DNA of 64,000 bases from Pseudomonas sp. ADAK13 (lineage in GTDB: Bacteria > Pseudomonadota > Gammaproteobacteria > Pseudomonadales > Pseudomonadaceae). The stretch covers positions 5,704,001 to 5,768,000 of the forward strand of contig NZ_CP052860.1 in the NCBI RefSeq assembly GCF_012935715.1, in the 5' to 3' direction. Every line of letters begins with the position of its first letter. The stretch's first letter is position 1. The notes beneath the pieces were generated by a model. It was not told the DNA's origin, made no database searches, and saw only the letters and a program-made list of their open reading frames with translations. This document shows positions 14,243-52,379 of the stretch, in pieces. The position numbers and the translations under genes are program-made.

Positions 14243-17200
14243 ATGATCACCGATTCACCTCGCTTCAAACCCTTCACCGCAGGCTCCTTGCTGCTGCTGT
14301 CCGTGGCGGCCCACGGGCAGTACCTCGAAACCGGCAAACCGGGCGATCCCGCCAGTTGGCGTTCGGCCGAGTTCCAGAGCGACTGGGGCCTGGACCGGAT
14401 GAAAGCCAACGAGGCCTACGCGGCCGGCATCACCGGCAGTGGCGTGAAGATCGGCGCGCTGGACTCGGGTTTTGACCCCAACCATCCCGAAGCCTCAAAG
14501 GACCGTTATCACGCGGTCACCGCCAGCGGTACCTACGTCGATGGCAGCCCGTTCAACACCACCGGCGCCCTCAACCCCAACAACGACTCCCACGGCACCC
14601 ATGTGACCGGCACCATGGGCGCGGCCCGTGATGGCGTGGGCATGCACGGCGTGGCGTACAACGCGCAGATCTACGTCGGCAACACCAATGCCAACGACAG
14701 TTTCCTGTTTGGCCCCACACCGGACCCCCAGTACTTCAAGGCGGTGTACAGCGCCCTGGTGGATTCCGGCGTGCGCGCGATCAACAACAGCTGGGGCAGC
14801 CAGCCCAAGGATGTCAGCTACCAGACCCTGGGCGACCTGCACGCGGCCTATGCCCAGCACTACAACCAGAACACCTGGCTCGACGCCGCCGCCGATGTGG
14901 CCAAGGCCGGGGTGATCAACGTGTTCAGCGCCGGCAACAGCGGCTATGCCAACGCCAGCGTGCGTTCGGCCTTGCCGTATTTTCAGCCTGGGCTGGAAGG
15001 CCACTGGCTGGCGGTGTCGGGCCTGGACAAGGCGAATAACCAGAAATACAACCAGTGTGGCATCGCCAAGTACTGGTGCATTTCCACGCCGGGAGCGTTG
15101 ATCAACAGCACCATTCCCGAGGGCGGCTACGGGGTGAAATCCGGCACCTCGATGTCGGCACCCCATGCCACCGGAGCACTGGCACTGGTGATGGAACGCT
15201 ACCCATACCTGAACAACGAGCAGGCCTTGCAGGTGTTGTTGACCACGGCCACCCAGCTTAATGGCGCGGTCACTGACGCACCCACCACACAGGTCGGCTG
15301 GGGCGTGCCGGACCTGGACCGGGCGATGCACGGGCCTGGGCAGTTGCTGGGCCCCATGACGGTCACGCTGGCGGCCGGGCAGGGCGATGTGTGGAGTAAC
15401 GCGATCTCCGACAAGGCGCTGATCCAGCGTCGGGCCGAAGACAGCGCCGAAACCCTGGCCTGGCAGCAAACCCTGCGCGACAGGGGCTGGGAAAACGGCG
15501 TGGGAGCCGGTGCGAGTCAGCAGGACCAGACCGACTACGCCGTTGGCACCGCCCGGGCGGCGGCAGCGGCCCAGCGTATCTACGAAGGCAGCCTGACCAA
15601 ATCCGGCGCGGGCAGCCTGATCCTGACGGGTGACAATACCTACCGTGGCCCCACCACCGTCAACGGTGGCCGGTTGGCGGTGAACGGCTCACTGACTTCT
15701 GCGGTGACGGTCAATGACAGCGGCACCGTGGGCGGCGCCGGGCGTATTGCGGCGTTGCAGGTGAATAACGGCGGCACCGTGGCGCCGGGCAATTCCGTGG
15801 GCACCTTGCAGGTGGCCGGGGATGTGAACCTCGCCGCCGGCTCCACCTATGCAGTCGAACTCACACCCATCCGCAGCGACCAGATCGTCGCCACCGGCAA
15901 GGCTACCCTCGGCGGCGGTGCCGTGACCCTGGCCCTGGAAAACAGCCCGACCCTGCTCAGCCAGCAGCAGGCCGAGAGCCTGGTGGGGCGCCAGTACACC
16001 ATCCTGCAGGCGGCGGGCGGAATCCAGGGCCAGTTCGGTGCCGTGTTGCCCAACTACCTGTTCCTGGGCGGCACGCTGGACTATGCCGCCAACGGCGTGC
16101 AACTGGCCATTGCCCGCAGTGACGCGAGTTTTGCCAGTGTCGGCGCCAGCCGTAACCAGCGCTCGGTGGCGGCCGCCGCCGAGCAACTGGGCGCCGGCAA
16201 CCCGGTGTATGAAAGCATCCTGCGCTCGGACTCACTGGCCACCGCACAACAGGGCTTCCAGCAACTGTCCGGGGAAATCTACCCGGCCATCGGCACGATG
16301 TTGATCAATGACAGCCGCCAGGTACGTGACGCCGTGGGCGAACGCCTGCGCCATACGCCGGTGGCCGGTGAAAGCAACGTGTGGGTCAAGGCGCTCGGCA
16401 GCTGGGGCAAGACCGACAGCCGCAGCGAAACCGCAGGCTACACCAGCTCCCTGGGCGGCATGCTGGCCGGCGTCGACGGCGCCCTGGACGAGCAGACCCG
16501 CGTTGGCCTGGTGGCGGGTTACAGCGACAGCTCCCTGAACATGGGCAGCGGCACCCATTCCTCGGCGTCCATCGACAGCTACCACCTCGGCGCCTATGCC
16601 GGGCATGAGCTGGGCAACTGGCGGCTGAGCGTCGGTGGCGCCTACAGCTGGCATCGCGGGGATGTGAAACGCGACTTGCAGTACGGCGAGGTCAGCGGCA
16701 AGCAGAAGGCCAAGCTGGATGCGCGCAGCGCCCAGGTATTTACCGAGGCAGCCTACCGCTTGAACGTGCCAGCGGTAGCGCTGGAGCCGTTCGCCAACCT
16801 GGCCTACGTGCACCTGGACAACGAACGCTTTCACGAGAAAGGCGACGCCGCCGCACTGGCGCGTGGCAGTGACAGCCGCGACGCGGTGCTGAGCACTCTT
16901 GGCCTGCGGGCGTCGAAAACCCTGGCCCTCAATGACCGGCAGCAACTGGACGTATCCGGTTCGTTGGGCTGGCAGCACAGCCTGAGCGCCGTCGAATCCG
17001 AGGAGCACCTGGCGTTTGTCGCCGGTGGGCCGTCGTTCGCGGTGCAAAGCTCGCCGCTGATGCGCGATGCGGCGCTGGTGGGGGTGCAGGCCAGCCTGGC
17101 GTTGAGTAAAAGCACGCGGGTCAACCTCGACTACACGGGCCAGTTGGCTGGCCGGGAGAAAATCCAGGGCGTGGGGTTGAGCCTGAACTGGCAGTTCTAA
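14243..17200 (+). CDS. prtA: Subtilase autotransporter PrtA
   Basis: A 985-residue type V secreted serine protease. A signal peptide (hydrophobic core GSLLLLSVAAHG) leads into an S8 subtilase passenger with Asp74 (ALDSG), His117 (SHGTHVTG) and Ser303 (SGTSMSAPH). An autotransporter-associated strand repeat (LTGDNTYRGPTTVNGG, near residue 460) follows. The C-terminal 260 or so residues form the beta-barrel, ending in aromatic Phe (SLNWQF). In the aprX-lipA operon known from P. fluorescens, prtA and prtB occupy this place. It is paralogous to the next gene, with a much more similar barrel than passenger. Translation uses AAAGGA before the ATG. Confidence 0.95.
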   Translation: MITDSPRFKPFTAGSLLLLSVAAHGQYLETGKPGDPASWRSAEFQSDWGLDRMKANEAYAAGITGSGVKIGALDSGFDPNHPEASKDRYHAVTASGTYVDGSPFNTTGALNPNNDSHGTHVTGTMGAARDGVGMHGVAYNAQIYVGNTNANDSFLFGPTPDPQYFKAVYSALVDSGVRAINNSWGSQPKDVSYQTLGDLHAAYAQHYNQNTWLDAAADVAKAGVINVFSAGNSGYANASVRSALPYFQPGLEGHWLAVSGLDKANNQKYNQCGIAKYWCISTPGALINSTIPEGGYGVKSGTSMSAPHATGALALVMERYPYLNNEQALQVLLTTATQLNGAVTDAPTTQVGWGVPDLDRAMHGPGQLLGPMTVTLAAGQGDVWSNAISDKALIQRRAEDSAETLAWQQTLRDRGWENGVGAGASQQDQTDYAVGTARAAAAAQRIYEGSLTKSGAGSLILTGDNTYRGPTTVNGGRLAVNGSLTSAVTVNDSGTVGGAGRIAALQVNNGGTVAPGNSVGTLQVAGDVNLAAGSTYAVELTPIRSDQIVATGKATLGGGAVTLALENSPTLLSQQQAESLVGRQYTILQAAGGIQGQFGAVLPNYLFLGGTLDYAANGVQLAIARSDASFASVGASRNQRSVAAAAEQLGAGNPVYESILRSDSLATAQQGFQQLSGEIYPAIGTMLINDSRQVRDAVGERLRHTPVAGESNVWVKALGSWGKTDSRSETAGYTSSLGGMLAGVDGALDEQTRVGLVAGYSDSSLNMGSGTHSSASIDSYHLGAYAGHELGNWRLSVGGAYSWHRGDVKRDLQYGEVSGKQKAKLDARSAQVFTEAAYRLNVPAVALEPFANLAYVHLDNERFHEKGDAAALARGSDSRDAVLSTLGLRASKTLALNDRQQLDVSGSLGWQHSLSAVESEEHLAFVAGGPSFAVQSSPLMRDAALVGVQASLALSKSTRVNLDYTGQLAGREKIQGVGLSLNWQF

Positions 17201-17220
17201 ACGGTACGCCACCTTCATGC

Positions 17221-17316
17221 AGGAGCGAGCTTGCTCGCGAAAAACCTGAACGCAGCACAGTTATCCAGAAAGCCCGAGTCATCGTTAACGACCATCGCGA
17301 GCAAGCTCGCTCCTAC
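17221..17316. repeat. Inverted pair of REP units (GGAGCGAGCTTGCTCGC type)
   Basis: One unit at 17221-17240 and its inverse at 17295-17316 occupy the gap between prtA and prtB. The second unit ends directly at the prtB ribosome binding region, so its last bases form part of the Rsm-type motif there. Confidence 0.85.
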
Positions 17317-17324
17317 AAGGAAGT
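17315..17324 (+). promoter_or_regulatory. RsmA/RsmE-type binding site over the prtB ribosome binding site
   Basis: ACAAGGAAGT is identical in all ten bases to the motif before aprX and matches the RsmA/RsmE consensus fully. The AAGGA core is the prtB Shine-Dalgarno sequence, five bases before the GTG start at 17330. The first bases come from the end of a REP unit. Confidence 0.6.
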
Positions 17325-17329
17325 CCACC

Positions 17330-20300
17330 GTGAAAACAACAAAACGAGGGTTTCAATCCGCCATCCCGACAGGCCCGGGCTACCCGCTCAAGGCCCTGAG
17401 TGGCGTGCCATACGGCGCGTTGCTGTGTTGCCTGGCCAGCCTGGGTACCGCCCAGGCCGCACCCTACGTCGAAACCGGGAAACTGGGGGACGCTGCCAGT
17501 TGGCGCAGCAATGAGTTCAAGGCCGATTGGGGCCTGGGCGCCGTGCATGCAGACGCTGCCTACGCCGCCGGCTACACCGGCAAAGGCGTGAAGCTGGGGA
17601 TCTTCGACCAGCCGGTGTACGCCCAGCACCCGGAATTCGCCAGCCCCGGCAAAGTGGTCACGATCGTGACCGAGGGCATCCGCCAATACACCGACCCGTA
17701 CATCCCGGTGAAGGCCGGGGACGCCTTTCGCTACGACGGCACGCCGTCCCTGGGCTCCAACGGCAAGCTCGGCAACCACGGCACCCACGTCGGCGGCATT
17801 GCGGCGGGTAATCGCGACGGCGGGCCGATGCATGGCGTGGCGTTCGATGCGCAAATCATCAGTGCCGAAAACGGTGACCCGGGCCCCGAAGACGGGATCA
17901 TCCTGGGCAACGATGGCGCGGTCTACAAAGCCGGTTGGGACGCGTTGGTGGCCAGCGGTGCGCGCATCATCAACAACAGCTGGGGCATTGGGATTGGTGA
18001 CCAGTACGCCAAGGGCGGGCGTGATCCGGCGTTCCCCAACTTCACGGTCAATGAGGCGCAGGCCCAGTTCAATAATATCCGGCCGATCCTCGGCACGATC
18101 GCCGGCGGTGCCTATCAGGGTGCGATCGATGCGGCCCGCAGCGGCGTGCTGACGATCTTCGCCGCCGGCAACGACTACAACCGCAATAACCCGGATGCGA
18201 TTTCGGGCCTGGCGTACTTCGTGCCGGAGATCGCACCCAACTGGTTGTCGGTGGCGGCCTTGCAGCAGAACCCCGACACCACCAGTGCCGACCCGTACGT
18301 GATTAGCACCTTTTCCTCTCGCTGCGGTTATGCCGCGAGCTTTTGCGTCGCGGCGCCCGGGACCAAGATCTACAGCTCGGTGATCAACGGCACCACCCTG
18401 GAAAACCTGACCACCGACTACGCCAACTTCAACGGCACTTCCATGGCTGCGCCCCATGTTGCCGGCAGTGCGGCGGTGTTGATGGAGCGCTTCCCGTACA
18501 TGAGCGGCGACCAGATTTCCACGCTGCTCAAAACCACCGCGACCGACCTCGGCGCACCGGGCATCGACTCGCTGTACGGCTGGGGCATGATCAACCTGGG
18601 CAAGGCCATCAACGGCCCGGGGATGTTTGTGACGGCTGAGGATATTCCGGCCGAGTTTCGAATCGACGGCGCCTACGGCTCCGGCCAATTCGTCGCGGAC
18701 CTGCCAGGGATGGGCGCCGTGGTGGATGCCGGTAAACCGACCCAGCGCCTTTGCACCGACGTGCATTGCGGGCTGGACGTGTGGAGCAACGACATCGCCG
18801 GGCATGGCGGCCTGACCAAGCAGGGCATTGGCGCGCTGGTGCTGACCGGCACCAACACCTACAGCGGCCCGACCCTGGTCAACCAGGGGTTGCTGGCAAT
18901 CAATGGTTCGATCACCTCCGACGTCACCGTAGGCAGCAGCGGGGTAGTGGGTGGTTCCGGGCACATCGGTTCACTCACCGCCAACAGCGGCGGTACCGTG
19001 GCGCCAGGCAATTCCATTGGCACGCTGAACGTCGCGGGGGATGTGAGCTTCGCAGCCGGCTCCACCTATGCGGTGGAGCTGTCGGCCACCAACAGTGATC
19101 GCATCGTCGCCGGTGGCAAGGCCACCCTCGGCGGCGGCACGGTGACCCTGGCCCTGGAAAACAGCCCGACACTGCTGACCCAGACCCAGGCCGAAAGCCT
19201 GATCGGTCGCCAGTACAACATCCTTCAGGCCGCCGGCGGCATTACTGGCAGCTTCGGTTCGGTGCTGCCCAACTACCTGTTTCTCGGCGGCACCCTGAAC
19301 TATGCCGCCAACGGTGTGCAACTGGATGTGGCGCGCAACGCCAACACCTTCGCCAGCGTGGCGGTCACGCCGAATCAACGCTCGGTGGCAGCCGCTGCCG
19401 AACAGTTGGGCGCCGGTAACGCTGTGTATGAAAGCCTGTTGTCGGCGCCGAATGCGGCGTCGGCCCAGGGTGCATTCCAGCAGCTGTCCGGGGAAATCTA
19501 CCCGGCGCTGGAAACCGCGCTGGTCAATGACAACCGCTACCTGCGCGAAGCCGTGGGCGAGCGTTTGCAGCAAGGCGAAATGGGCGCATCGACCGAGACT
19601 ATCGACAGCCGCGGCAACGTTTGGGTCAAGGCCCTCGGCGCCTGGGGCAAGACCGACAGCCGCAGCGACACGGCAGGCTACACCACCTCCATCGGCGGCA
19701 TGCTGGCGGGTGTGGACGGCGCGCTGGACGAAGACACCCGTTTGGGCCTGGTGGCGGGCTACAGCGACACGTCGCTGAACATGGGCAGTGACACCCACTC
19801 CCGCGCATCAGTCGACAGCTATCACCTGGGTGCCTATGTCGGGCACGAGATCGGCGCCTTGCGTTTGAGCGGGGGCGCAACCTACAGCTGGCACCGTGCC
19901 GATGTGAAGCGCGAGCTGCAATACGGTGAAGTCGCCGGCAAGCAAAAAGCCAAGGTCGATGCCCGCAGTACCCAGGTGTTTACCGAAGCGGCGTATCGCC
20001 TGAACTTGCAACCCCTGGCCCTGGAACCGTTCGCCAACCTGGCGTATGTGCACCTGGATGCCGACGGGTTTACCGAGAAGGGTGATGCGGCGGCGTTGAA
20101 GGGCGGGAATGACAGCCGCGACCTGGTGTTGAGCACCCTGGGCGTAAGGGCGCTGAAAACCTTGAACGTGAGCGACCACCAGCAACTGGAGCTTTCCGGC
20201 ACGCTGGGCTGGCAGCACAACCTGAGCAGCGTCGACTCCGAACGCCACCTGGCATTTGCATCGGGCAGCCCATCGTTCTCCGTGGAGAGCTCGCCGATGG

Positions 20301-45248: not shown

Positions 45249-45321
45249 ATTCATACCTACCTGAAGGTATCCACCACAACGACCTGTTTTAACTGTTTAC
45301 GACATCCGCGACGCTATCCGT

Positions 45322-45335
45322 TGAACGAGTGTTCA
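45322..45335. promoter_or_regulatory. Operator-like palindrome before the aminotransferase/ABC operon
   Basis: TGAACGAGTGTTCA has perfect TGAAC/GTTCA arms. In its 16-base context (TTGAACGAGTGTTCAG, 45321-45336) it is identical at 14 of 16 positions to the palindrome at 51331-51346 beside the tetR gene. It is proposed as a binding site of that TetR protein. Confidence 0.65.
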
Positions 45336-45359
45336 GTTTCAATTATGTTGGCTGCAACC

Positions 45360-45379
45360 CCCGCTGGGCAACCAGCGGG
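45360..45379 (+). terminator. Leader hairpin, possible attenuator
   Basis: CCCGCTGG (45360-45367), GCAA loop and CCAGCGGG (45372-45379) form a perfect 8-bp GC stem, followed by CTTGCGCTTTTTC. It lies between the operator-like palindrome and the ATG at 45415. It is either the late terminator of cdh or, more interestingly, a leader attenuator of the next operon. Confidence 0.55.
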
Positions 45380-45414
45380 CTTGCGCTTTTTCTGATTGAA
45401 CGAGAGGCACTGGC

Positions 45415-47409
45415 ATGCGGTTTTCACCCTTTGTTGAGCGAATTGCAGGGCAGGGCGTAGCCGCCTGGGACATCCACCACGCCGCGTTCCAGGCCAGCAG
45501 CAAGGGCGAAGACATCATTATCCTGAGCGTCGGCGACCCGGATTTCGCCACCCCCTCGTTCATCACCGACGCCGCCGTCGAAGCGCTGCGCCAGGGCGAT
45601 ACCCACTACACCGAAATCCCCGGCCGCCCGGCACTGCGGGATGCGATCGCCGCCCGTTACAGCCAGTCCCTGGCTCGCCCGTTAAACGCTGAAAACGTCA
45701 TCACCGTGGCCGGCGCGCAGAACGCTTTGTTCGTCACCTCGCTGTGCCTGTTGCAGGCCGGTGATGAAGTGATCGTCCTCGATCCGATGTACGTCACCTA
45801 CGAAGCCACGCTCAAGGCCAGCGGCGCGACGCTGGTGCGGGTGCCGTGTGCTGCCGATTCGGGCTTTCGCCTTGATCCTGCGCTGCTGGCCGCCGCCATC
45901 ACGCCGCGCACCCGTGCGATTTTCTTCTCCAACCCCAACAACCCCACCGGCGTGGTGCTCAACCCCCAGGAGCTGCAGGCAATTGCCGACCTGGCGATCG
46001 AGCATGAACTGTGGGTGGTGGTGGACGAAGTCTACGAAAGCCTGGTGTTCGACGGTGAGTACCACAGCCTCGCCGCGCTGCCGGGCATGGCCGACCGCTG
46101 CATCGTGATCGGCAGCCTGTCGAAATCCCACGCCATGACCGGCTGGCGCATCGGCTGGATCGTTGCCGAGCCTGCCATGGTGGCCCACGCCGAAACCCTG
46201 GTGTTGAGCATGCTGTACGGCTTGCCGGGGTTTGTGATGGAAGCCGCCACCGCCGCCGTGTTGGCCCACGATGAAGTCACCCAGGGCATGCGTGAAACCT
46301 ACCGGCGCCGCCGCGACCTGGTGGTCGCCGGCCTGAGCGATTGCCCGGGCATTCACGTACGCGCCCCCCAAGCCGGCATGTTCGTGCTGGTGGATGTGCG
46401 GGACACCGGCCTCAGTTCCCTGGATTTTGCCTGGCGGCTGTTCCGCGAAGCGGGGGTTTCCGTATTGGATGCCGCCGCCTTCGGTGAACCGGCCCAGGGC
46501 TTTGTGCGGCTGTCGTTCACCTTGGGTGAAGCGCGAATGGCCGAGGCCTGCGAGCGCATCAGCCGCTTCGTCGCCAAGCTCGCCGGCGAGCCGCGAATAG
46601 AGCCTGCTGCGAAAATCATCAGCGTGCAGCCCGTGGCCGCGAAGAAGATGATCGAGGTGCTCGACCTGCACAAACGCTTCGGCAATATCGAAGTGCTCAA
46701 GGGCATCTCCCTGACTGCGCACGAAGGCGAAGTCATCTCACTGATCGGCGCCAGCGGCTCAGGTAAAAGCACCTTGCTGCGCTGCATCAACATGCTCGAA
46801 GTGCCGGACCAGGGCAGCATTCATGTCGACGGCGAGAGCATCAAGCTCAACTACGGTCGCCCCGGCGCACCGCTGGTGGCCGATGCCAAACAGCTGGTAC
46901 GCATTCGCTCGACGCTGGGCATGGTGTTCCAGAACTTCAACCTGTGGCCCCATCGCACCGTGCTGGAAAACCTTATCGAAGCGCCGATCCAGGTCCTGCG
47001 CGAAAGCCGTGCCGAAGCCATCGAGCGCGCCGAAGCCTTGCTCGACCGGGTTGGCCTGGCCGCCAAGCGCAACGAATACCCGGCGTTCCTCTCCGGCGGC
47101 CAGCAACAGCGGGTGGCTATCGCTCGTGCCCTGGCCATGCGCCCCAAAGTCATGTTGTTCGACGAACCCACCTCGGCCCTCGACCCGGAGTTGGTGGGCG
47201 AAGTGCTGCGGGTGATTCGTTCCCTGGCCGAAGAAGGCCGCACCATGATCCTGGTGACCCATGAAATGGCGTTCGCCCGGGACGTGTCATCCAAAGTCGC
47301 GTTTTTGCACCAAGGCTTGATCGAGGAAACCGGTTCGCCGGACTCAGTGTTTATCGACCCACGCAGTGAACGTTGCCGGCAGTTCGTCAACGCGCATCAA
47401 ACTCGCTAA
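45415..47409 (+). CDS. Fused PLP aminotransferase / amino-acid ABC transporter ATPase
   Basis: One uninterrupted 664-residue frame encodes two proteins usually separate. Residues 1 to about 395 are a class I/II aminotransferase with the pyridoxal-phosphate lysine Lys237 (SLSKSHAMTGWR) and the substrate Arg region near VRLSFTLGEAR. After a linker of about 20 residues, residues 415-664 are a polar-amino-acid ABC ATPase with Walker A GASGSGKS (445-452), signature LSGGQQQR and Walker B MLFDEPTSALDPE. Both halves keep their key residues. The following genes supply the binding protein and two permeases. The fusion suggests that the imported amino compound is transaminated, but the compound is unknown. 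Confidence 0.92.
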   Translation: MRFSPFVERIAGQGVAAWDIHHAAFQASSKGEDIIILSVGDPDFATPSFITDAAVEALRQGDTHYTEIPGRPALRDAIAARYSQSLARPLNAENVITVAGAQNALFVTSLCLLQAGDEVIVLDPMYVTYEATLKASGATLVRVPCAADSGFRLDPALLAAAITPRTRAIFFSNPNNPTGVVLNPQELQAIADLAIEHELWVVVDEVYESLVFDGEYHSLAALPGMADRCIVIGSLSKSHAMTGWRIGWIVAEPAMVAHAETLVLSMLYGLPGFVMEAATAAVLAHDEVTQGMRETYRRRRDLVVAGLSDCPGIHVRAPQAGMFVLVDVRDTGLSSLDFAWRLFREAGVSVLDAAAFGEPAQGFVRLSFTLGEARMAEACERISRFVAKLAGEPRIEPAAKIISVQPVAAKKMIEVLDLHKRFGNIEVLKGISLTAHEGEVISLIGASGSGKSTLLRCINMLEVPDQGSIHVDGESIKLNYGRPGAPLVADAKQLVRIRSTLGMVFQNFNLWPHRTVLENLIEAPIQVLRESRAEAIERAEALLDRVGLAAKRNEYPAFLSGGQQQRVAIARALAMRPKVMLFDEPTSALDPELVGEVLRVIRSLAEEGRTMILVTHEMAFARDVSSKVAFLHQGLIEETGSPDSVFIDPRSERCRQFVNAHQTR

Positions 47410-47434
47410 CTCCAAAAAAAGACGGGGCAAGATC

Positions 47435-48271
47435 ATGAAATCCAAACGATTGGCAAAGTGGTTGAGCAGTGCAGTGTTGATGCTGGCGGCAGGTACTGCG
47501 TTGGCGGCGGAGAAACCCATCGTGTTCGCGGTGGCGGCGGAACCCTACCCACCGTTCACGGTGAAGGGCGGCAACGGCGAATGGACAGGGTTTGAGGTGG
47601 ACCTGATCCACAAGCTCTGCGACTTGATGAAAGCTGAGTGCCAGATCAAGGAAGTGGCGTGGGACGGGATCATCCCGTCGTTGCTGGCGAAGAAAATCGA
47701 CGTGATCTTCTCCTCGATGTCGGTCACCGAGGAGCGTGAAAAACAGATCGCGTTCAGCCGCGCCTACTACGATTCGCTGCTGGGCATTGCCGGTCCCAAG
47801 GGCACCACCGTCGAAGTCTCGCCGGCGGGCCTGAAAGGCAAGATCATCGGCGTGCAGATCTCCACCGTCAGCGCCAACTACCTGAAGAAGTACTACGAGA
47901 AAATTGCTGACCTGAAGTACTACGACACCCAGGAATCGGCCAACGCCGACCTGATTGCCGGGCGCACCGACCTGATGATGGCCGACGGTGTCGCCATCGC
48001 CATGATGGTGAAAACGCCTGAAGCCCAGGGCCTGGCCGAGATCGCCGAAGTGCCTTACGACCCCATCATCGGCCGTGGCGTGGGCGCGGGCCTGCGCAAG
48101 GAAGACACCGAACTCAAGGCCCGCCTCGACAAGGCGATTGGCGAGCTGCTGGTGAGCAAGGACTACGCTGACCTCTCGCAGAGTGTGTTTGGTGTGTCGG
48201 TGAGCCCGTGCAAGCGCGCCGACACGCCAGCCTACGTCAGCAAAGTATGTGACAGCCCCTACACGAACTAA
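47435..48271 (+). CDS. Amino-acid ABC transporter periplasmic binding protein
   Basis: A 278-residue family 3 solute-binding protein. The signal peptide (WLSSAVLMLAAGTALAA) is followed by KPIVFAVAAEPYPPFTVKGGNGEWTGFEVDL, the hallmark of this group, and YDSLLGI in the second lobe. It lies 25 bases after the fused gene. ATG at 47435 is chosen over earlier in-frame codons inside that gene. It should deliver the substrate to the two permeases encoded after the REP pair. Confidence 0.92.
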   Translation: MKSKRLAKWLSSAVLMLAAGTALAAEKPIVFAVAAEPYPPFTVKGGNGEWTGFEVDLIHKLCDLMKAECQIKEVAWDGIIPSLLAKKIDVIFSSMSVTEEREKQIAFSRAYYDSLLGIAGPKGTTVEVSPAGLKGKIIGVQISTVSANYLKKYYEKIADLKYYDTQESANADLIAGRTDLMMADGVAIAMMVKTPEAQGLAEIAEVPYDPIIGRGVGAGLRKEDTELKARLDKAIGELLVSKDYADLSQSVFGVSVSPCKRADTPAYVSKVCDSPYTN

Positions 48272-48304
48272 CCTGTGACCTTCCTGTGGTGAAGGGGCTT
48301 GTCC

Positions 48305-48400
48305 TGTGGCGAGGGGGCTTGTCCCCCGTTGGAGTGCGCAGCGCTCCCGCTTTTTTGGGGCTGCTCCGCAGCCCAACGGGGGACAAGCCCCCTCGCCACA
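48305..48400. repeat. Paired inverted REP elements inside the ABC operon
   Basis: Head-to-head units from TGTGGCGAGGGGGCTTG to CAAGCCCCCTCGCCACA lie between the binding-protein gene and the first permease gene. The placement, 3' of a binding-protein gene, recalls REP sequences that stabilise binding-protein mRNA in other transport operons. Confidence 0.85.
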
Positions 48401-48435
48401 AGGGTCATTGCGCATCATTGAAATAGGGAGCGCCG

Positions 48436-49140
48436 ATGTTCGATCTACTCAACTTCAGCGAGCAAGGCTGGGGCAACGCATTGCTCAAAGGGTTATGGAT
48501 GACCCTGCAGATCTCCGCCGGCTCGTTTGCGGTGGGGCTGCTGATCGGCCTGGTGGTGGCCTGTGCCAAGCTCAGTGCGCCGCGCCCGATTGCCATGCTG
48601 ATGCGCGGCTACACCACGGTGTTCCGCGCGGTGCCCGAGTTGCTGCTGATCCTGTTGCTGTATTACGCAGGCTCCATGGCCCTCAATGCGCTGATGCTGT
48701 GGCTGGGGTTCGAGCAGTTCAACATCAGCGGGCCGCTGGTTGCGATCCTGGTATTGGGGCTGGTGCAGGGCGCGTACGCCTCGGAGATTTTCCGCGCGGC
48801 GATCCTGGCGATTCCCCACGGGCAGATCGAAGCGGCACGGGCCTTCGGCTTGAGCGGCTTGGGTCTGTTTCGCCGGGTGACCCTGCCGATCATGGCGCCG
48901 TACGCGCTGGCCGGCATGTCGAACCTGTGGATCAACCTGATCAAGGACAGCGCGCTGATCAGCGTGGTGGGCACCAACGAACTGCTGTACACCGCCAAGC
49001 AGGCGGCGGGCTCGACCCGGCAATACCTGTTGTTCTACCTCACGGCCGCCGCCTTGTATTACCTGGTGACACTGGCCTCCAACTACCTGTCCGGGCGCCT
49101 GGAACGACGTATTCGTCGCTGGATGCCGGTTGTCGAGTGA
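48436..49140 (+). CDS. Amino-acid ABC transporter permease 1
   Basis: A 234-residue inner-membrane protein of the HisM/HisQ family. It has about five helices, the N-terminal GLWMTLQISAGSFAVGL segment and the EAA loop motif (IEAARAFGLSGLGLFRRVTLP) that contacts the ATPase. It pairs with the next permease, seven bases downstream. GGGAG lies before the ATG. Confidence 0.93.
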   Translation: MFDLLNFSEQGWGNALLKGLWMTLQISAGSFAVGLLIGLVVACAKLSAPRPIAMLMRGYTTVFRAVPELLLILLLYYAGSMALNALMLWLGFEQFNISGPLVAILVLGLVQGAYASEIFRAAILAIPHGQIEAARAFGLSGLGLFRRVTLPIMAPYALAGMSNLWINLIKDSALISVVGTNELLYTAKQAAGSTRQYLLFYLTAAALYYLVTLASNYLSGRLERRIRRWMPVVE

Positions 49141-49147
49141 GCCGCAC

Positions 49148-49846
49148 ATGCCTGAGTGGATAAGTTATTACGCAGGACTGATCGCCAAGGGCTTGCAGAC
49201 GACCCTGTCGTTGCTGGTGATCTCGGCGCTGCTGGGTTTCGCCCTGGCGGTGCTGGTGGCGCTGGCACGGCTGTCCCGGCGCAAGTGGCTGGCCCGTTGC
49301 GCACTGGGTTACACCAGCGTGCTGCGGGGCACACCGCTGCTGATCCAGATCTACATTTTCTACTACGGCCTGGGCAGCCTGTTTGCCCAGTTCCCGATGA
49401 TTCGCGGCAGCTTTTTCTGGCCGTTCCTGCGGGACGGCTACTGGTACATCGTGTTCGCCCTGGTGTTGTCGGTGGGGGCGTACGTCGGCGAAGTGATTCG
49501 CGGTGGCCTGCTGGCGGTGCCCAAGGGCGAAATGGAAGCCGCCTCGGCGTTTGGCATGACGCCTCGCCAGGCGCTATTGCGCGTGCGCCTGCCACGGGCC
49601 ATGCGCCTGTTGCTGCCCACACTGGCGGGGGAAACAGTGATGTTGCTCAAGTCCACGGCACTGGCCTCCACCATCGCGGTGGTCGACCTGCTCGGCGCCG
49701 CCAACGTGGTGCGCGCCCAGACCCTGCAGATCTACCAGCCGCTGCTGCTGGTGGCCGGGGTTTACCTGTGCCTGACCTTTTTGATTGAAGCCCTGTACGC
49801 GATTGCCGAGCGGCGTGGCACACCGTTGCGCAGGTCTGCCGGATGA
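49148..49846 (+). CDS. Amino-acid ABC transporter permease 2
   Basis: A 232-residue partner of the preceding permease. It shows GLQTTLSLLVISALLGFALA at the N terminus, the RGTPLLIQIYIFYYGLG segment common to this family and an EAA loop (MEAASAFGMTPRQALLRVRLP). ATG at 49148 gives the family length. Its stop overlaps the next gene by four bases (ATGA), so the DMT transporter is part of the same operon. Confidence 0.93.
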   Translation: MPEWISYYAGLIAKGLQTTLSLLVISALLGFALAVLVALARLSRRKWLARCALGYTSVLRGTPLLIQIYIFYYGLGSLFAQFPMIRGSFFWPFLRDGYWYIVFALVLSVGAYVGEVIRGGLLAVPKGEMEAASAFGMTPRQALLRVRLPRAMRLLLPTLAGETVMLLKSTALASTIAVVDLLGAANVVRAQTLQIYQPLLLVAGVYLCLTFLIEALYAIAERRGTPLRRSAG

Positions 49847-50841
49847 AAACCGATCGCTCGTTGCAAGGGATTGCCCTGTGCTCACTGGCCTATGCGTTCC
49901 TGGCGTTGCAGGACGCCGGGATCAAATGGCTGGTGGCCGACTATTCGGTGTTCACCATCCTGTTCTGGCGCAGCCTGGTGGTGGTTTCCGCCTGCGTGAT
50001 CGCCGGGCGCCTGGGCCTGCTCAAGCGTGCCTGGCACTCGGTCAGCCGCAGGCTGTTGATCATCCGGGGCCTGTTGTCGCTGCTGGCCTGGCTGCTGTAC
50101 TACACCGCCGCCAAGGACCTGACCCTGGCGGAAATGACCACCCTGTATTTTTCCGCGCCGATCATGGTCACGTTGCTGGCCGCGCTGATCCTCAAGGAGC
50201 GCGCCAGCCGTGGCCAGTGGGTTTCGCTGATCATTGGCTTTGTGGGCGTGGTGATCGCCTGTCGCCCCAGCAGCATGGTCGACCCGCTGCCCATTGGCCT
50301 GACGCTGGCCGCAGCGCTGTGCTGGGCGTTTACCTATATCCAGCTGCGCCAGGTGGATGACAACACCTCGGTGCTCGAACAGATGCTGATCACCAACGTG
50401 GTGTTCGTGATTTGCATGGCGGTGACATTGCCCTGGACGCACACACCCTCACCGACACCGGCATGGCTGGGCATGCTCGGCGCCGGGCTGGTGGGCGGAA
50501 TTGGCCAGTTCCTGTTGTTTGCGAGTTTCCGCCGGGCCACGGCAACGCTGTTGGCGCCGTTCGAGTACACCGGGTTGATTTGGGCGTTCCTGCTGTCGAG
50601 CCTGGTGTGGGGCACGCTGATGGATGTATCGCTGATCTTCGGCGCCGTACTGATCGCCATCAGCGGCACCCTGGCCATGCTCAGCGCCCGGCACCCTGTG
50701 TCACAAGACGTGGTCGGCGCTGAATGCTCCGTGACGCAGCCCTTGTATCCAGCAGCGGCAGATGTGCAGCCCGTCGGCGGGGCTGAAGGTGCCGGGGTTG
50801 AGGCACCACTCGAGCCAGAGTCCGTCGAGCATCGCCGATAA
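49843..50841 (+). CDS. DMT-family (EamA) transporter with an overlapping C-terminal tail
   Basis: A 332-residue drug/metabolite-type transporter with ten predicted helices in two EamA halves (LAYAFLALQDAGIKWL near the start). Such proteins commonly export amino acids or metabolites. The membrane part ends near residue 285. The remaining 45 or so residues are hydrophilic and antisense to the end of the tetR gene (50701-50841). It is coupled to permease 2, so uptake and efflux functions share one message. The tail is probably incidental. Confidence 0.88.
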   Translation: MKTDRSLQGIALCSLAYAFLALQDAGIKWLVADYSVFTILFWRSLVVVSACVIAGRLGLLKRAWHSVSRRLLIIRGLLSLLAWLLYYTAAKDLTLAEMTTLYFSAPIMVTLLAALILKERASRGQWVSLIIGFVGVVIACRPSSMVDPLPIGLTLAAALCWAFTYIQLRQVDDNTSVLEQMLITNVVFVICMAVTLPWTHTPSPTPAWLGMLGAGLVGGIGQFLLFASFRRATATLLAPFEYTGLIWAFLLSSLVWGTLMDVSLIFGAVLIAISGTLAMLSARHPVSQDVVGAECSVTQPLYPAAADVQPVGGAEGAGVEAPLEPESVEHRR

Positions 50842-51309
50842 GCCGATGGCCGCCAGGCGCGTGTCGTGGATCACGAAGCCTTCGCTCGCGGCCAGGTCGT
50901 CGAGCAGTTGGCGAATCAGTTCGAGGTAGGCGCGGTAGCTTTTTTCGTGGGAGTCGTTCACGGGGTCCGAATGGCGGATCAGGCTCCAGAACACCACCCA
51001 CACACCCAGCAGTTTCGGGTCCATGACCCGTGAGGAAAACGAGCCGGCGAGGAACGCATCCAGCCGTGCGGCAGGGCCCTGGGCCTGGTCGACTTCCTGC
51101 CACAGGGCGGTGGTCAGTTCGCTGGCGAGCTTGTGGTAGGTCTCGGCGATCAGTGCATCGATGCTGCCGAAATGGTGATTGAGCAACCCCACCGAAACCC
51201 CGGCTTCAGTGGCGATGCGCCGCACGGAAATGCCGGCATGCCCGTCCCGGGCGAGGCTGGTGAGGGTGGCGGCAATCAACAGGTCGCGACGGTCTTCGGT
51301 CACAGGCAC
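50701..51309 (-). CDS. TetR-family regulator, BetI-like
   Basis: A 202-residue regulator. The DNA-binding part lies at residues 1-55 (RRDLLIAATLTSLARDGHAGISVRRIATEAGVSVGLLNHHF), and the C-terminal ligand domain resembles BetI. It is convergent with the DMT gene, with which it overlaps by 141 bases, and divergent from the deacylase gene. Palindromes at 51331-51346 and 45322-45335 are likely targets, which would place the whole ABC operon and the deacylase under its control. Confidence 0.9.
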   Translation of the reverse strand: MPVTEDRRDLLIAATLTSLARDGHAGISVRRIATEAGVSVGLLNHHFGSIDALIAETYHKLASELTTALWQEVDQAQGPAARLDAFLAGSFSSRVMDPKLLGVWVVFWSLIRHSDPVNDSHEKSYRAYLELIRQLLDDLAASEGFVIHDTRLAAIGLSAMLDGLWLEWCLNPGTFSPADGLHICRCWIQGLRHGAFSADHVL

Positions 51310-51330
51310 ACCCTTGGTAAAAATACATGG

Positions 51331-51346
51331 TTGAACGTGTGTTCAA
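51331..51346. promoter_or_regulatory. TetR-type operator between tetR and the deacylase gene
   Basis: TTGAACGTGTGTTCAA has perfect 6-bp arms TTGAAC/GTTCAA. It lies 22 bases before the tetR start and 38 bases before the deacylase start, directly upstream of an AT-rich TATATAC. The twin copy at 45321-45336 supports a shared repressor. Confidence 0.7.
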
Positions 51347-51383
51347 TATATACCCACAGCTCCAACAAGAGGAGGGCAGCGGC

Positions 51384-52379
51384 ATGGCAAAAGACCTTTC
51401 GTGGCAAGTCCCGGGCGATTCGGGGAACACCCTGCACATCGGCGCCTGGCGCTTTGAGGGGGATGGCAGCGGCCCGCGGGTGCACCTGCAAGCCGGCGTG
51501 CACGCCGATGAAATCGCCGGGATGCTGGTGTTGCACCAACTGCTGCCACGTTTACAGGCGTGCCAGGACCAGGGGCGGCTCAAGGGCACGGTGACGGTGG
51601 TGCCCCAGGCCAACCCGTTCGGCATTGGCCAGTTTCGCCAGGGGCGGTTGCTGGGGCGCTTTCATGAAGCCACCGGGCAGAATTTTAACCGGGCGTTCGA
51701 TCATTCATTGGCGATGGAGCGCCCGGCCAGCAACCTGGCGCAATGGCAGAAAAGCCTGGTGCAACTGGCGGCCGATGCCGAGTTGGTGCTGGACCTGCAC
51801 ACGGATGATGAAGCGCTGCCGTACCTGTATATCCACCGCAGCTTTTGGCCCGAGGGCCGGGCATTGGCGGCGGCGTTGCAGGTGGACGTGGTGATTGTCT
51901 GGGACGAGGGCGGGGACGGGTCGTTTGAGGAAACCATCATCAATCACGCCAACCCGCGAATGGCAGCGACCATTGAATTGCGCGGGCAGGCGGATGTGTG
52001 TGACGCCCTGGCCGGGCAGGATGGCGATGGTATCTGGGCCTGGCTCTGTGCAAACGGGGTGATCGACGAAGCCCCGGCGATTGCCGATTGGCAGGGGCAG
52101 GTGGTGGACATGGGGTGCATGGAGACCATTCTGGCGCCGTGCCCCGGGGTGTTGGTGTTTGAAAAACGCCTCGGTGAACAGGTCGAGGAGGGCGAGCGGT
52201 TTGCACGGATTATCCGGCGGCCCGGGGATCCGGGGTCTGAAGTGGTGCTGCATGCGGCGCAAACCGGGCGCATGGTGACCGGGCATCGGGAGCGCCTGGT
52301 GTCGCAGGGTTCGGTGGTGGCCAAGTTTACCGGTTCGCGGTTGTCTGACAGCTACAGCGGTGGGGTGTTGGATCCTTAG
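51384..52379 (+). CDS. Succinylglutamate desuccinylase/aspartoacylase-family deacylase
   Basis: A 331-residue zinc hydrolase of the AstE/AspA family. The HxxE zinc motif is GVHADEIAG and the third histidine is in LDLHTDDE, followed by the usual C-terminal beta domain (PGVLVFEKRLGEQVEEGERFARI). Known relatives remove acyl groups from N-acyl amino acids or N-acetyl-diaminobutyrate, as in ectoine catabolism (DoeB/EutE). ATG at 51384 has AGGAGGG upstream. Together with the TetR-linked ABC importer and aminotransferase it suggests use of an N-acylated amino acid. The specific substrate is inference. Confidence 0.88.
   Translation: MAKDLSWQVPGDSGNTLHIGAWRFEGDGSGPRVHLQAGVHADEIAGMLVLHQLLPRLQACQDQGRLKGTVTVVPQANPFGIGQFRQGRLLGRFHEATGQNFNRAFDHSLAMERPASNLAQWQKSLVQLAADAELVLDLHTDDEALPYLYIHRSFWPEGRALAAALQVDVVIVWDEGGDGSFEETIINHANPRMAATIELRGQADVCDALAGQDGDGIWAWLCANGVIDEAPAIADWQGQVVDMGCMETILAPCPGVLVFEKRLGEQVEEGERFARIIRRPGDPGSEVVLHAAQTGRMVTGHRERLVSQGSVVAKFTGSRLSDSYSGGVLDP

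Follow-up and report, generated by a model that had tools for sequence, protein, structure and literature searches.

The aot operon encodes an arginine/ornithine importer together with AotO. In Pseudomonas aeruginosa, the arginine transaminase (ATA) pathway comprises AruH, an arginine:pyruvate transaminase, and AruI, a 2-ketoarginine decarboxylase (PMC11113362, PMC7901475). CphZ, a hydrolase of cyanophycin dipeptides, splits beta-Asp-Arg (PMC10206079). Here we consider a gene cluster of Pseudomonas sp. ADAK13 at positions 45,321 to 52,379 of a 64,000-nucleotide stretch (the window; contig NZ_CP052860.1, positions 5,704,001 to 5,768,000), in which relatives of several of these components occur. 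Judged from sequence, the cluster seems to be a regulon for arginine transamination that is controlled by two TetR repressors of BetI type, TetR1, encoded in the cluster, and TetR2, encoded at the aruI locus, and it probably imports arginine or an arginine conjugate.

At present the cluster mostly carries generic domain-name annotation. A Pfam scan of the window proteins bears out the gene content given in a preliminary description of this DNA: a fused Aminotran_1_2/ABC_tran gene, an SBP_bac_3 gene, two BPD_transp_1 genes, an EamA gene, a BetI-type tetR on the minus strand and an AstE_AspA_cat deacylase gene. The genes and predicted sites, in window positions, are as follows.

45321..45336, no strand: operator 1, TTGAACGAGTGTTCAG, 94 nt upstream of the fused open reading frame (ORF); predicted
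45321..45349, plus strand: predicted sigma-70 promoter, -35 TTGAAC, 17-bp spacer, -10 TATGTT; from an alignment of 43 distinct upstream regions
45415..47409, plus strand: fused gene for an AruH-like class I aminotransferase (45415-46584) and a HisP/AotP-like ATP-binding cassette (ABC) ATPase (46648-47409), 664 amino acids (aa); catalytic motifs intact
47435..48271, plus strand: family 3 periplasmic binding protein, Lys/Arg/ornithine-octopine type; profile matches
48436..49140, plus strand: ABC permease, HisQ-like; profile matches
49148..49846, plus strand: ABC permease, HisM-like; profile matches
49843..50841, plus strand: DMT/EamA transporter, the last 141 nt antisense to tetR
50701..51309, minus strand: TetR1, BetI-type repressor (PF13977), 202 aa; profile matches
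51331..51346, no strand: operator 2, TTGAACGTGTGTTCAA, in the gap between tetR1 and the deacylase gene; predicted
51384..52379, plus strand: AstE/AspA-type zinc deacylase of CphZ/AotO-like fold, 331 aa; profile matches and comparison of a structure model

Both palindromes are present, as the preliminary description had it, at 45321-45336 and 51331-51346, and agree at 14 of 16 positions. The perfect arms measure 5 bp in operator 1 (TGAAC/GTTCA) and 6 bp in operator 2, around asymmetric 4-bp centres. The left half of operator 1 is itself the -35 box and lies 17 bp ahead of a TATGNT box that is invariant throughout the upstream alignment (47 loci, from which four duplicates were dropped to leave 43 distinct regions). 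It is only from this conservation that the promoter is predicted; a consensus promoter scan did not flag TTGAAC-17-TATGTT.

From a larger group, 199 genomes of the same genus were compared. Of these, 42 hold the aminotransferase (E at most 1e-170), and the locus of each was used, the window serving for its own genome. In each genome the 16 candidates that looked best (13 in one listed genome) were scored, and a repressor counted as present if one of them matched at E 1e-30 or better, a threshold that a diverged TetR could escape; a close TetR1, at least 67% identical, occurs in 34 of the 199. With at most one mismatch, TTGAACN4GTTCAA is present in 40 of the 43 upstream regions, the other three (L043, L041 and L042) having 2, 3 and 4 mismatches. 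The windows upstream of the binding-protein and first permease genes of the same loci gave best palindrome matches of only 3-6 mismatches. The site in the tetR-deacylase gap is found at one mismatch or fewer in 33 of 39 deacylase-bearing loci; those without it are L036-L040, with a more distant TetR, and L044, with a truncated tetR.

Repressor content divides the 42 genomes into 32 with TetR1 and TetR2, two with TetR1 only, four with TetR2 only and four in which neither was detected. Measured against TTGAACN4GTTCAR, operator 1 has no mismatch in any of the 32 or in the four with TetR2 only; of the two genomes with TetR1 only, one has none and the other has 1, and the remaining four have 2, 3, 4 and 5. 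Operator 2 has 0-1 mismatches in 32/32 genomes with both repressors, and TTGAAC-17-TATGNT is kept in every one of these. Both sites proposed by the preliminary description are therefore conserved in the compared genomes that hold TetR1 and TetR2. The four genomes with neither repressor have also lost the importer and deacylase at the locus, so that regulator loss and gene loss occur together. L041 and L042, where no TetR1 was found at the locus, show operator decay like that of these genomes. On the aminotransferase tree, L041 groups with L183 and L042 with L184, so that loss took place separately at least twice, although related genomes do not count as independent cases. At these four loci the aminotransferase is the only member of the set found: the importer, deacylase and tetR were not found, and the operator is decayed.

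That the palindromes are chance occurrences, or promoter elements only, seems extremely unlikely. TTGAAC does double as a -35 box, and the motif is not enriched by count. Within the window the palindrome has 11 matches at three or fewer mismatches against 4.3 expected, and 3 of 100 shuffles reached as many. Across the whole genome (7.30 Mb), there are 3 places with TTGAACNNNNGTTCA (TTGAAC-N4-GTTCA; 2 forward and 2 reverse rows; reversed-pattern control, 1 and 2 rows) and 4 with TGAACNNNNGTTCA (4 and 4 rows; control, 6 and 6), operators 1 and 2 accounting for two places under each. The genome scan called for in the preliminary description thus returned 3-4 places, two of them the reported sites; the palindrome is rare yet not enriched, because the controls are of the same order. 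The other matches, at 4266250 inside a long ORF and at 4387149 upstream of a LysR-like gene and within a predicted ORF of 130 aa, are taken as chance. Random 130-bp windows of the compared loci hold a match at two or fewer mismatches in 90 of 4000 cases (true sites included) and at three or fewer in 307 of 4000. The evidence above chance is the conservation of the palindromes in relatives. The distal half-site plays no part in the promoter; it is retained in 38/38 genomes with a TetR and degraded in 4/4 where neither was detected. The -35/-10 pair remains readable in two of those four and in L041. Comparative genomics supports well the earlier claim of one regulon, which probably reaches the unlinked aruI operon too.

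TetR1 carries a TetR_N helix-turn-helix (PF00440) and PF13977, and a conserved palindrome, its predicted operator, lies at its own gene. The expectation that a TetR binds near its own gene fits operator 2, which is conserved with TetR1. Since operator 1 persists where TetR1 is lost and TetR2 remains, TetR2 may read it besides the adjacent TetR1. A stricter division, with TetR2 alone reading operator 1 and TetR1 controlling only itself and the deacylase, strikes us as rather unlikely. It would account for the four TetR2-only genomes, where operator 1 is perfect and the site of the tetR1 gap is gone (4-6 mismatches), and for the centre of operator 1, GAGT or GACT (reverse complement in L036-L040), which is near those of the aruI and ECH sites while that of operator 2 varies. 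However, L144 and L129, with TetR1 and no TetR2 detected, keep operator 1 at 0-1 mismatches beside a bare aminotransferase-tetR1 pair.

As for the aruI and ECH sites, TTGAACRAGTGTTTA(A/G) sits 63-66 nt upstream of aruI in 9/9 linked loci, and (C/T)TGAACA(C/G)T(C/T)GTTTAG sits 62-71 nt upstream of ECH in all seven loci examined, that of ADAK13 included. Both have 2-3 mismatches to the symmetric motif and, because random windows reach that level, the weight lies on their repeated sequence and position. The ADAK13 genome holds exactly two TGAACRCTCGTTYA sites, operator 1 and one at the ECH-aruI operon 0.96 Mb away; as the pattern was written from these sites, this count shows rarity and not independent discovery. 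In L147 and L149, where the ECH site is present, TetR2 was detected and TetR1 was not, so the ECH site cannot depend on TetR1 alone. The same palindrome and promoter geometry (TTGAAC-17-TATACT) recur in the tetR-ATPase gap of Burkholderia cepacia L050. A close relative of TetR2 is PDB 3e7q (321 bits), which we infer to be PA4984; an open-access literature search on 3E7Q returned nothing relevant. At the aruI locus of ADAK13 (L130), an operator-like TGATCACTCGTTTA with one mismatch lies at about 4447, close to where a gene for an outer-membrane beta-barrel protein begins.

The aminotransferase, with the decarboxylase and the aldehyde dehydrogenase that are linked to it in relatives, points to arginine. 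Some homologues of the aminotransferase are labelled arginine:pyruvate transaminase or AruH by source databases; the name AruH-like draws on these labels and on context, since among the best 25 of 284 NCBIfam matches none is named AruH and none is at its cut-off. By tblastn, 9 of the 42 genomes (L111-L117, L191, L192) encode AruI directly ahead of the fused operon (at least 3 kb of upstream sequence was available in 41), with an aldehyde dehydrogenase gene between the two in L115, L116, L191 and L192, and NF005712 (AruI) is above cut-off in L111. The unlinked aruI of ADAK13 is 82% identical to that of L111; genes for ECH, an acyl-CoA dehydrogenase and a CoA ligase precede it, and TetR2, a flavin mononucleotide (FMN) oxidoreductase and an XRE-cupin regulator are encoded nearby. 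A non-fusion order, ATPase-binding protein-permease-permease-aminotransferase with an adjacent AruI-like gene, occurs in Burkholderia, Chromobacterium, Craterilacuibacter, other Pseudomonas and a second cluster of ADAK13. Also at L130, beyond the aruI operon, 16350-19884 encodes an ABC importer of dipeptide type, with SBP_bac_5 and two permeases.

Other observations weigh against an arginine-transaminase regulon of this design. TGAACRCTCGTTYA with at most one mismatch gives 9 matches, not far above the 5 of its reversed control. L036-L040, whose TetR is 59-64% identical, have operator 1, and no site was found in their tetR-deacylase gap. No site (at most two mismatches, 250 nt) stands before aruI itself in L130, L165, L050, L051 and L053, and 9 of 16 regions upstream of TetR2-type genes, that of L050's own TetR included, are without a match at three or fewer mismatches, the other 7 having one. 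The binding protein keeps residues that would hold the head group of a free amino acid, which lends no support to an N-alpha-acylated ligand. In the deacylase, an insert of about 30 residues after NFNR is absent from 6/6 window-type proteins aligned and present in the 4/4 AotO-like ones and in 8ein, so the acyl group may differ from that of AotO/CphZ. Finally, ADAK13 has a second ABC+AruH+AruI cluster (57% identity in AruH) and three AruI genes above cut-off, and the present locus may therefore serve an arginine analogue.

Such an analogue, that is, a non-proteinogenic basic amino acid or conjugate handled by AruH/AruI homologues of drifted specificity (D-arginine, an N-delta-acylated ornithine, or an opine-like or peptide-bound arginine analogue), is a serious possibility, if not one we would call probable. 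Besides the separate cluster, it is favoured by the equal scores of octopine- and arginine-type binding proteins (OccJ, 130.9 bits; LAO, 130.0 bits) and by the presence of a deacylase, needless for free arginine. However, the operator is common to the aruI operon, and the aruI neighbourhood of ADAK13 resembles the arginine-transaminase locus of P. aeruginosa (PMC11113362, PMC7901475). The second cluster itself (L165, C1:888000-907999) reads AruI-LysR-ATPase-binding protein-Q-M-AruH, and downstream of it lies an Amidohydro_3 hydrolase, a further case of importer and AruH found beside a hydrolase of amide type.

The nearest solved structure to the deacylase model is CphZ, and H40, E43, H139, E198, N102 and R103, which correspond to zinc and catalytic residues of the AstE/AspA fold, are invariant over 35 deacylase sequences. 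The deacylase was not adopted as a true CphZ, the insert of about 30 residues being missing. An aot-type operon is also present in the genome, at 0.47 Mb; an open-access literature search on 8EIN/8EIP and aotO gave nothing relevant. The preliminary description had offered ectoine-derived N-acetyl-diaminobutyrate as a candidate substrate. Uptake, deacylation and transamination, as it proposed, would fit the domains found, and the deacylase superfamily suits ectoine breakdown; the DoeB/EutE structure 6twm is among the deacylase's structural matches, and the EhuA-like ATPase score comes to 315.5 against a cut-off of 345.4. Uptake and breakdown of ectoine or N-acetyl-diaminobutyrate via a DoeB-like deacylase and a transaminase is nevertheless very unlikely. 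The deacylase scores 30 bits against 402.7 for the DoeB model TIGR02994, the best match in the genome to ectoine hydrolase (TIGR02993) reaches 30.6 of 613 bits, CphZ is nearer structurally, and the partner genes in relatives are of arginine type; this candidate was rejected.

Among the transporter parts, the drug/metabolite transporter (DMT), a putative exporter, is accessory at most, since the full gene was not found in L035, L036-L040 and L139, and only a fragment in L119, in operons that are otherwise intact. For about 47 codons, the DMT reading frame runs across the 3' end of tetR in antisense (window 50701-50841). This overlap recurs in those relatives examined in which tetR is intact and the DMT gene complete; in L187-L189, which have lost tetR, part of the stretch still codes the DMT tail. 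A repetitive extragenic palindrome-like long inverted repeat, GGCGAGGGGGCTTGTCCCC ... GGGGACAAGCCCCCTCGCC, lies between the binding-protein and permease genes (window 48290-48405), in a gap whose length differs among relatives.

The most unusual part of the cluster is the AruH-ABC ATPase fusion. It is a single ORF of 664-681 aa in 45/45 distinct proteins from loci holding both domains, and 66 of 120 listed homologues have at least 600 aa. The pyridoxal phosphate lysine, Walker A, Walker B, signature and H-loop motifs are intact, and the linker between the domains varies in length and sequence. A fold model (mean pLDDT 83.7, pTM 0.57) has two folded domains joined by a linker, residues 395-407, of very low confidence; it does not give their relative placement. 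The fused state requires four changes on the tree, and this neither establishes nor rules out a single origin. Met412, considered as an internal start for making a free ATPase, is kept in 43/45 fusions; no clear Shine-Dalgarno sequence was seen ahead of it, either in the window or in three close relatives, and it may be the old ATPase start codon, no more. An open-access literature search on aminotransferase-ATPase fusions gave nothing relevant.

We consider it reasonably likely that importer, fused AruH-like transaminase, deacylase and two BetI-type TetRs make up one regulon of the arginine-transaminase pathway. The binding protein and the two permeases, driven by the fused ATPase, would import arginine or an arginine conjugate, from whose N-acyl or isopeptide form the CphZ/AotO-like zinc deacylase would free the amino acid. 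The AruH-like transaminase would then make the 2-oxo acid (2-ketoarginine), to be passed to AruI, an aldehyde dehydrogenase and acyl-CoA-type enzymes; these are encoded next door in some species, AruI being 0.96 Mb away here. TetR1 would repress tetR1 itself and the deacylase gene, and would shut off the fused operon by covering its -35 box, an operator that TetR2, encoded at the aruI locus, probably reads as well. It is tempting, as a tentative extension, to propose that AruH forms a homodimer, held on the dimer of the ABC ATPase, and transaminates arginine, free or released, at the inner mouth of the pump, and that the two paralogous repressors, sensing different intermediates, read one shared operator and so couple uptake to breakdown. 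The cluster thereby gains a pathway, an operator and a regulon that can be put to the test. With an amino-acid transaminase naturally fused to the ATPase of an ABC importer, it offers a clean system for the question of physical coupling between transport and metabolism, and the two paralogous TetRs a comparative test of cross-talk.

The locus shares features with four described systems. With the octopine/nopaline importers (OccJ, NocT) it has in common a binding protein as near OccJ as LAO, but this protein keeps the LAO Asp, which is Asn in OccJ, and the transaminase here is fused to the ATPase. Like the BetI choline repressor, TetR1 has a PF13977 C-terminal domain and a predicted palindromic operator over a -35 box, as described for BetI1 (PMC12442346); however, its operator is TTGAAC-N4-GTTCAA whereas the palindrome given there for BetI1 is ATTGACGCGTCAAT, and TetR1 scores below the BetI model cut-offs (TIGR03384, 104.4 against 201.3 bits; a second BetI model, 97 against 118). 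The aot operon likewise pairs an importer of this ABC type with a zinc hydrolase of AstE/AspA type, and CphZ is the nearest solved structure; however, the present deacylase is without the insert, the gene order is different and the ATPase here carries a fused AruH domain. The likeness to the ATA locus of P. aeruginosa extends to the AruH-like transaminase and to an AruI-type decarboxylase and acyl-CoA genes with a like operator. The aruI locus of ADAK13 also encodes a regulator of XRE-cupin type, an oxidoreductase and a TetR, matching the description of PA4987, PA4986 and PA4984 near aruSR (PMC11113362, PMC7901475), but has an Aldolase_II gene where PA4985 is a binding protein. In contrast to that locus, AruH is here fused to an ABC ATPase within an importer operon; a Pfam scan of 13 L130 ORFs, with no genome-wide AruSR search, showed no two-component gene; and control would apparently be exerted by BetI-type TetRs.
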